A stretch of 64,000 nt of DNA from Pseudoxanthomonas composti (GTDB lineage: Bacteria > Pseudomonadota > Gammaproteobacteria > Xanthomonadales > Xanthomonadaceae), in the NCBI RefSeq assembly GCF_004122095.1, contig NZ_SAWZ01000004.1, positions 310,001-374,000 on the forward strand, given 5' to 3'. Below, one piece after another: positions 45,849 to 46,537 of this stretch. The notes under the pieces are model-generated. The model was not told the origin of the DNA. It did no database searches and saw only the letters and a list, made by a program, of their open reading frames with translations. The translations under genes were made by a program, and so were the position numbers. Within the stretch, counting starts at the first letter, position 1; each line of letters starts with the position of its first letter.

Positions 45849-46537
45849 CGCTGCCGCTGCCGCTGCCGCTGCTCTTGCTCTCGCTGTTGTTGTTGATCTT
45901 GCCGTTGCCGTTGCCGTTGCGTTTGATCTTGCTTTTTGCCTTTGACCTTTGGAGCCGTAAAGCTCGCCGAGCACCGGAGGAAAAAACGGGCGAAGAGGCG
46001 CGCCTGTTTGAGCGAAGCGAGTTGAGCGCCGTCCCGTTTTTTCCGAGGAGCGCAGGGGACCGCCGCGCAGCGGCGGCGAGTGTCCGGCGGAAGCGGTTTT
46101 GGTGACTTTTGCCGCGACAAAAGTCACTCGCGCTGCAAGCGCGAAAGCTTTTGCTCCTGACTTTGCCGTTGCTTCGCTTTCGCCTTTCAAAGCGTTTGGA
46201 GCAAGAGCCGAAAGCCAGAGCAAGATCAAGGGCTTTCGCGCCTGATGGCGCGACTTACTTTTGTCTTGGCAAAAGTAAGCAAAACCGTCTTCGCCGGACA
46301 CACGCCGGGCCTGCGGCCCGGTCCCCTGCGCTCCTCGCAGAATTGGGGACGGCGCTCAACTCGCTTCGCTCAAACAGGCGCGCCTCTTCGCCCCAATTCT
46401 GCTCCGGTGCTCGGCGTGCTTTACGGCTCGAAGATCAAGGGCGAAAAGCAAAATCACGAGCAACGGCAACGGCAACGGCAACGGCAACGGCAACGGCAAC
46501 AGCAACGGCAACAGCAACAGCAACAGCAACAGCAACC
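45849..46537. repeat. Large multi-hairpin palindrome with hexamer-repeat ends
   Basis: An imperfect inverted repeat of about 690 bases with its centre near 46190. Each half holds four perfect hairpins. Left/right stems: 12 bp at 45979-45990/46033-46044 and 46337-46348/46391-46402; 7 bp at 46060-46066/46070-46076 and 46305-46311/46315-46321; 10 bp at 46102-46111/46118-46127 and 46254-46263/46270-46279; 7 bp at 46128-46134/46138-46144 and 46236-46242/46247-46253. Stem bases differ between halves but pairing is always kept. The ends are hexamer tandems: GCCGCT and GCCGTT units at 45850-45918 and CAACGG/CAACAG units at 46461-46536. No protein is supported; poly-Leu or poly-Gln frames are by-products. 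Confidence 0.9.

Follow-up and report, generated by a model that had tools for sequence, protein, structure and literature searches.

TwoAYGGAY RNA (Rfam RF01731), a member of the CsrA-binding clan CL00106, was listed in 2010 as probably an RNA and probably not cis-regulatory (PMC2864571), and CsrA binding has been proposed for it, with tandem GA pairs noted in one of its stems (PMC4333381); both statements follow the accessible portions of these reports. In E. coli, the dispersed BoxC repeat TMECO has the motif CCCTCNCCC-N3-6-GGGNGAGGG-N3-GGGNGAGGG, and all five inverted pairs given in the accessible text join a type A copy with a type B copy (PMC4666352). The accessible open-access literature yielded no paper on the layout or the sequence strings reported here.

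We analyzed a 64,000-nt stretch of the Pseudoxanthomonas composti genome (the window), in which a palindrome at 45852-46545 sits between two convergent genes. The palindrome consists of two ~197-nt units arranged head-to-head, the alpha-like unit A (45952-46148, + strand), which runs from GAGCCGTAAAGC to GCGCGAAAGC, and its inverted, beta-like partner unit B (46232-46429, - strand), with boundaries taken from the unit alignment (85 units for unit A). HMM matches in the window extend over 45941-46158 (+) for unit A and 46434-46222 (-) for unit B. The palindrome arms (45949-46133 and 46248-46432) are 85% complementary with a spacing of 114 nt, and A and B read as units are 83% identical. The left neighbor (44323-45825, +) encodes a DUF4874/DUF4832 protein and stops 126 nt before unit A, and the right neighbor (46712-48166, -) encodes 2-oxoadipate dioxygenase/decarboxylase (HGLS), with its end 282 nt from unit B. 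A hexamer tract precedes each unit, T-rich and A-poor on the unit-sense strand 5' of unit A (45849-45951, +) and visible as a GCAACG array on the + strand 5' of unit B (46430-46536, -). The arrays themselves occupy 45849-45872 and 45899-45920 on the left and 46460-46536 on the right, in agreement with the hexamer tandems that a first-pass annotation had placed at both palindrome ends. The palindrome goes beyond chance, with further copies in its own genome and relatives in other genomes.

We rejected a protein-coding origin of the element, as four ORFs tested across it gave no Pfam match at E ≤ 0.001. Open frames crossing it at 45723-46301 (-, 192 aa) and 46109-46954 (+, 281 aa) have no Pfam match and are likely spurious. 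A phage or plasmid origin was also rejected, with no phage match and a single weak match to a Variovorax plasmid.

The fold of each unit is conserved and specific to one strand. An outer helix encloses a junction from which a long arm and a short hairpin extend; hairpin H3 follows, its loop pairing with the linker in front of it, and a last hairpin ends the fold. In unit A (all positions on the + strand), P1 pairs 45954-45957 with 46085-46088, with both-side change in one of its four pairs, and P2 pairs 45962-45966 with 46077-46081; in relatives, P2 alternates between GA/GA and Watson-Crick pairs. H1 (45979-46044) is formed by GGAAAAAACGGG (45979-45990) and CCCGTTTTTTCC (46033-46044) and contains the covarying inner helix H1b (45997-46003/46024-46030) and a conserved apex, TGTTTGAGCGAAGCGAG (46005-46021), which holds GCGAAGC, the sequence of an unusually stable DNA mini-hairpin. 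H2 (46060-46076) reads CCGCCGC-GCA-GCGGCGG. Pseudoknot strand a, GCGG (46093-46096), pairs with CCGC (46112-46115) in the H3 loop and is followed by the T-rich loop 1, TTTTG (46097-46101), by H3 itself (46102-46127; GTGACTTTTG/CAAAAGTCAC), and by H4 (46129-46143; CGCGCT-GCA-AGCGCG). In unit B (all positions on the - strand), H1 (46337-46402) joins GCAGAATTGGGG (46391-46402) with CCCCAATTCTGC (46337-46348), H2 (46305-46321) reads CCGGGCC-GCA-GGCCCGG, and H4 (46237-46252) reads CGCGCC-ATCA-GGCGCG; between the latter two, the stretch 46254-46288 holds the linker ACGGTTTTG (46280-46288) and H3 (46254-46279), with a pseudoknot of just 2 bp (GG/CC). The stem swaps that the first-pass annotation quoted between the halves are present in the sequence, and its view of mirrored halves stands, but its count of four hairpins per half was too low, with eight covarying helices and a pseudoknot in each. 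Some units elsewhere carry extra hairpins whose insertion points are fixed, one following H1b and the other H2 (L058:3319-3557, L090:3014-3232, L101, L103, and L106), as if these hairpins were addable modules.

The first consensus was built from 84 of 85 Pseudoxanthomonas units, with L061, in which H3 is damaged, excluded before the covariation counts. In another unit (L064:3234-3429), part of the H1 arm is deleted. In a broader set of 81 aligned units, picked from 165 and spanning several genera, we found eight covarying helices (P1, P2, P3, H1, H1b, H2, H3, and H4; 55 pairs). Paired cells made up 95.7% versus 78.4% after shuffling, double-change cells numbered 703 versus 212 ± 13, and the covariation score was 0.434 versus 0.127 shuffled and 0.035-0.071 in slid controls; kinship among the units inflates the shuffle contrast, and derivation of the structure from overlapping sequences gives it an advantage over the slid controls, with the effect being large on every measure. 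Folded alone as sense-strand RNA, unit A reached -93 kcal/mol (z = -2.45) and unit B -97.9 kcal/mol (z = -5.00), with none of 200 shuffles as stable in either case.

The helices also indicated which strand is under selection. Over the 42 pairs of H1, H1b, H2, H3, and H4, we counted 108 G-U cells versus 10 A-C cells, and the asymmetry persisted in minimal tree changes (90 versus 10) and among rare cells (29 versus 10). Since strand-blind mutation or a double-stranded function predicts equal numbers of G-U and A-C, this excess implies that one strand, running from 5' GAGCCGTAAAGC to GCGCGAAAGC 3', was selected as a single strand. Such a strand is very probably an RNA, and it is also compatible with a fold in single-stranded DNA (ssDNA). 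The double-change excess together with the 108:10 ratio of G-U to A-C upholds the proposal of selection for structure, and a dispersed structured RNA, one of several options raised at first pass, is the best reading. We consider the structure of the element to be well supported; its function we infer.

The H3 loop pairs with the bases 5' of the T-rich linker, as GCGG/CCGC in unit A, and corresponding pairings occur in Luteimonas (GGGACC/GGTCCC in L212) and Pseudomonas (GGGG/CCCC and TGCCC/GGGCA in L250 and L259). From 195 sources, we parsed 189 modules, of which 93 were distinct and 37 had distinct loops. With one module per loop (n = 37), the pseudoknot helix averaged 3.43 versus 2.24 ± 0.15 with loops permuted, and 0 of 2,000 permutations were as high. 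Where the H3 loop is the common CCAAG, which unit B has, only 2 bp of pseudoknot can form. Linker-loop pairing could represent one state of a switch.

The order of strand a, T-rich loop, b, a', and b' is that of an H-type pseudoknot, in which loop 1 occupies the deep groove of stem 2. The T-rich loop 1 thus makes a U.A-U triple helix in the H3 module a likely prediction. A parallel third strand and a plain copy of the 5' arm, taken as competing models, differed in 18 rows, with informative asymmetric tracts being few. The parallel strand was favored in 11 of the 18 rows, although seven of these 11 were unrelated or antisense hairpins, and it led by 1 nt in three element variants (L131/L185 and two in L259). 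The plain copy led by 1-2 nt in seven rows, four through strand-a bases, two through one extra C, and one antisense. Because the asymmetric tracts were few and split, the triple helix stays a prediction.

The P. composti genome (4.33 Mb, 24 contigs) contains three complete pairs, in the window, at C18:156417-157077, and at C23:81670-82332; it also has one unpaired unit at C18:122865-123213, and contigs C6, C8, and C13 each begin with a piece of the element. Because these three contigs start inside element copies, the element seems to break assembly, and its copy number is probably underestimated. We defined an exact (type I) box as 21 fixed bases around H3 and found it in 8 of 38 Pseudoxanthomonas genomes, with no matches for the reversed control; copies ranged from 36 in G009 and 12 in G017 to 1 in G052. 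A scan of named genomes gave at least 118 stretches. The type II H3 pattern (CTTTCTTTG/CAAAGAAAG) occurred in 30 of the 38 genomes. None of 368 further genomes, sampled evenly across the class, contained the type I box, suggesting that the element is frequent in certain lineages only. With an HMM of Pseudoxanthomonas units, we obtained long matches from Luteimonas, Lysobacter, and Xanthomonas; those from Pseudomonas, Inhella, Atopomonas, and other taxa, some Bacteroidetes and Clostridia bins among them, were partial. We also observed the H3 box among hairpins in other phyla, in Bacteroidetes bins (L108, L113, and L154), Clostridia bins (L122, L153, L200, and L201), and Pseudoflavonifractor (L171 and L175), and several of these boxes have linker-loop pairing (CGCGG/CCGCG in L200 and CGGG/CCCG in L171).

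Many occupied sites were shared between species. One pair site is common to G010, G009, G007, G011, G017, and P. winnipegensis, another to five of these, and at least seven occupied sites are common to three or more species, several of them to three to six. Pairs at different sites within a genome were 97.4% identical in G017, 89.3% in G011, 83.2% in G009, and 82.0% in G007, and mean pair identity was 85.4% at orthologous sites (24 comparisons) and 83.4% at unrelated sites across genomes (115 comparisons). These values point to concerted evolution in some genomes atop old sites. HGLS was found in 23 of the 38 genomes, including that of P. composti; the other 22 lacked both a DUF4832 neighbor and a unit in the 1.5 kb of flank retrieved and so offered no clean empty-site comparison at the window locus.

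The placement of units relative to genes was analyzed with gap orientations from heuristic codon-score gene calls. Pseudoxanthomonas gaps with units were convergent in 28 cases, co-directional in 30, and divergent in none of 58, versus 29 divergent among 161 other gaps (p = 8e-5), and gaps with units in other Xanthomonadaceae, leaving out 21 units at locus edges, were convergent in 16, co-directional in 21, and divergent in 1 of 38, versus 36 divergent among 172 other gaps (p = 0.004); many of the counted gaps are orthologous across species and not independent, so that these p-values overstate the difference. Xanthomonadaceae units are thus almost confined to gaps in which one or both flanking genes end, with an excess of convergent gaps. 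At TwoAYGGAY loci in Pseudomonas, 10 gaps were convergent, 8 co-directional, and 3 divergent (21 counted, 9 dropped), with no avoidance of divergent gaps. Of 85 Pseudoxanthomonas units, 58 had their nearest 5' gene on their own strand, meaning that a simple 3'-UTR model accounts for some two thirds of the units. The 60-nt 5' flanks of 84 units contain 6.3% A and 40% T and, with 26.6% C versus 27.1% G, are not clearly rut-like. TTGNNNTTG occurred in 69 of the 84 flanks versus 65 of 2,000 random stretches. Words of this type are about 25 times commoner in the 60 nt before units than at random (L001 and L050-L106).

Partners within a pair were less alike than expected. Across 23 pairs of two type I units, stem identity between partners was 0.721 versus 0.775 ± 0.019 after reshuffling within genomes (p = 0.0005), a null that also mixes the two unit types, and the corresponding value for non-stem identity was p = 0.053. 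H4 was identical between partners in none of the 23 pairs (null, 5.5) and H3 in one (null, 5.8); by helix, H3 and H4 showed clear unlikeness and H2 partial unlikeness, and the effect was not significant for H1 and H1b. The unit tree contains two broad groups, and in G000 (the P. composti genome) and G017 each pair takes one unit from each group. Type I units without a type I partner had a type II partner 5' on the other strand in 14 of 35 cases in a strict test and in 18 of 35 in a looser one. Given the A/B pairs of TMECO, a preference for unlike partners may be a general property of this kind of repeat. Paired repeats that are homogenized by type in some genomes, yet unlike within the pair, also offer a case of concerted evolution. 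The 689-nt pair with flanks folded as one strand into a single long hairpin (-502.6 kcal/mol), indicating that unlike stems alone do not prevent cross-pairing; in this model, separate folding of the units would need co-transcriptional folding or early 3' ends.

The reading that we favor, with a probability of roughly 0.42, is that the element is a 3'-end RNA module, present once for each convergent gene, that may define or protect transcript ends. Covariation, strand asymmetry, the pseudoknot, gap context, unlike pairs, orthologous sites, and the CsrA-clan arm in relatives all point toward it. Transcription of a gene would enter its unit, and the RNA would fold into a compact module that sets the transcript 3' end. 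The A-poor, T-rich hexamer tract before the unit is a candidate Rho landing region, and exonucleases may be stopped close to the 3' end by the triple-helix pseudoknot predicted there. Inverted pairing would supply each of two convergent genes with its own sense copy, and differing stems would favor each copy folding by itself. In TwoAYGGAY-type relatives, the arm would additionally present CsrA/RsmA-type GGA loops, which the window units do not. Against a 3'-end module stand the 27 of 85 units without a same-strand 5' gene, the folding of the pair as a long hairpin, and the lack of an intrinsic terminator beyond chance. On this last point, the two-way terminator envisaged in the first-pass annotation found no backing, as we detected three intrinsic-terminator-like sites, each antisense to the unit containing it, and shuffles gave 2.0 ± 1.7.

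Multiple copies, a patchy distribution, and the exact box in only 8 of 38 genomes of the genus are also what might be expected of a non-autonomous mobile element of the MITE or REPIN-like kind, copied in trans and requiring its fold for transposition. Such an element would account for the 97.4% identity of G017 pairs at different sites even though these sites have orthologs in other species, and for the one site occupied by a pair of two type I units in G000 (L085) and by a type II/type I arrangement in G011 and G009 (L056 and L074). However, the strong gene-end bias and the sites common to three or more species speak against mobility, and we found no clean empty site, the 22 other HGLS genomes having no DUF4832 neighbor within 1.5 kb at the window site. 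Copying by a REP-type transposase, as had been suggested at first pass, fails on the distribution of Y1_Tnp (PF01797), the only transposase family counted, which is present in 35 of 38 genomes of the genus by genome-level counts that do not follow the element (12 boxes and no Y1_Tnp in G017; no boxes and 11 Y1_Tnp in G053), and on the many orthologous sites. We regard a mobile element as unlikely. A somewhat poorer prospect is an ssDNA element that forms an intrastrand triplex like BoxC/PIT and acts on replication or recombination rather than as RNA. The T-rich linker and purine arm can form a pyrimidine-motif triplex, one folded DNA strand would also give the G-U versus A-C asymmetry, and the TMECO inverted pairs in the accessible account likewise join types A and B (PMC4666352), but placement follows gene ends, and relatives bear CsrA-type RNA loops. 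The GA/GA pairs in P2 count against it as well; such pairs are usual in RNA and possible in DNA.

Those CsrA-type loops raise the question of a CsrA/RsmA-binding, sponge-like RNA. CANGGANG-type loops occur in TwoAYGGAY relatives, and the motif was found on the opposite strand within 620 nt 5' of 16 of 35 type I units without a type I partner versus 71 of 1,000 random stretches, with two or more motifs at 5 of 35 versus 9 of 1,000. The window units, in contrast, have neither such a loop nor a TwoAYGGAY match, and only 14 of the 35 units (18 in the looser test) have a type II partner; we consider a sponge improbable. Least probable, with only a slight chance of being correct, is that the compensatory changes arose by template-switch correction of quasi-palindromes with no selection at all. 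Stems that change wholesale and are mostly perfect would be expected from such correction, but it is strand-blind, whereas G-U lies far above A-C, and the longer-range helices P1-P3 and the pseudoknot also covary.

Among described systems close to the element is TwoAYGGAY. At E ≤ 1, Rfam gave no credible match and no TwoAYGGAY match to 45600-46800 of the window, the sole match to the region being a CRISPR repeat model at 19.9 bits versus a cut-off of 42, and nothing credible in six loci with type II or other partners. The first-pass view that no named family has this layout therefore holds for this unit, but TwoAYGGAY is a relative. TwoAYGGAY was detected in 2 of 19 loci scanned, both from Pseudomonas, and in L156 it lies directly 5' of the H3 box. 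Six of eight Pseudomonas genomes, which were reached via the H3 box and are not a random sample, carry it in multiple copies (7-32 matches each at E ≤ 0.001, above the cut-off in five), with several matches in inverted pairs. In 23 of 30 TwoAYGGAY loci, the HMM from Pseudoxanthomonas alone had a same-strand match (E < 1e-3) that follows the first GGA loop by 68-117 nt, and the other seven have the same order by eye with a different tract. In Pseudomonas, TwoAYGGAY supplies two hairpins at the position of the H1 arm, and the 3' half of these loci, like that of the window units, consists of a short hairpin, GG-T-rich linker, H3, and H4. By alignment, HMM, and inspection, we found that type I, type II, and TwoAYGGAY-bearing units have a common order on one strand of arm, H2, GG-T-rich linker, H3, H4, and GAAA. 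Unlike TwoAYGGAY, the window unit has the apex TGTYTGAGCGNAGCGAGTT, lacks AYGGAY loops, which some type II partners and Pseudomonas relatives have, and does not match the Rfam model; it shares the TwoAYGGAY layout but falls outside that family.

Other described repeats also resemble the element in some respects. BoxC/PIT/TMECO intrastrand-triplex repeats are dispersed and intergenic and form inverted A and B pairs, but they have a 37-nt G/C-rich purine motif and lie upstream of ORFs more than downstream, and the accessible text describes no long RNA-like fold for them (PMC4666352). The P. fluorescens repeats R0, R2, R6, R26, R178, and R200 are intergenic, some with inverted repeats, and biased to tail-repeat-tail gaps, whereas the ends of R0 and R2 match insertion sequences; here the comparison is with the description of the R repeats in the accessible text (PMC2718517). 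REP sequences and REPINs with TnpA-REP are likewise multicopy, extragenic, and often in inverted pairs, but span 20-40 bp and carry GTAG or CGTC tags according to the accessible text (PMC3733652).

Triple-helix H-type pseudoknots such as that of telomerase RNA have the same order of a, U-rich loop 1, b, a', and b', with an A-U-rich second stem; the pseudoknot of our element is by comparison a sequence-level prediction, and common descent is not implied. We propose tentatively, at close to even odds, a large superfamily of bacterial 3'-end RNAs over Xanthomonadaceae and Pseudomonas, possibly extending to Inhella, Bacteroidetes, and Clostridia. Its members would have a triple-helix pseudoknot core, TwoAYGGAY would be only one arm, and unlike inverted pairs would be kept to provide every convergent gene with a copy of its own. 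Such a superfamily would set the orphan motif TwoAYGGAY in a larger structure, locate it in the genome, and assign it a testable role, and it predicts a triple-helix pseudoknot at bacterial transcript 3' ends.
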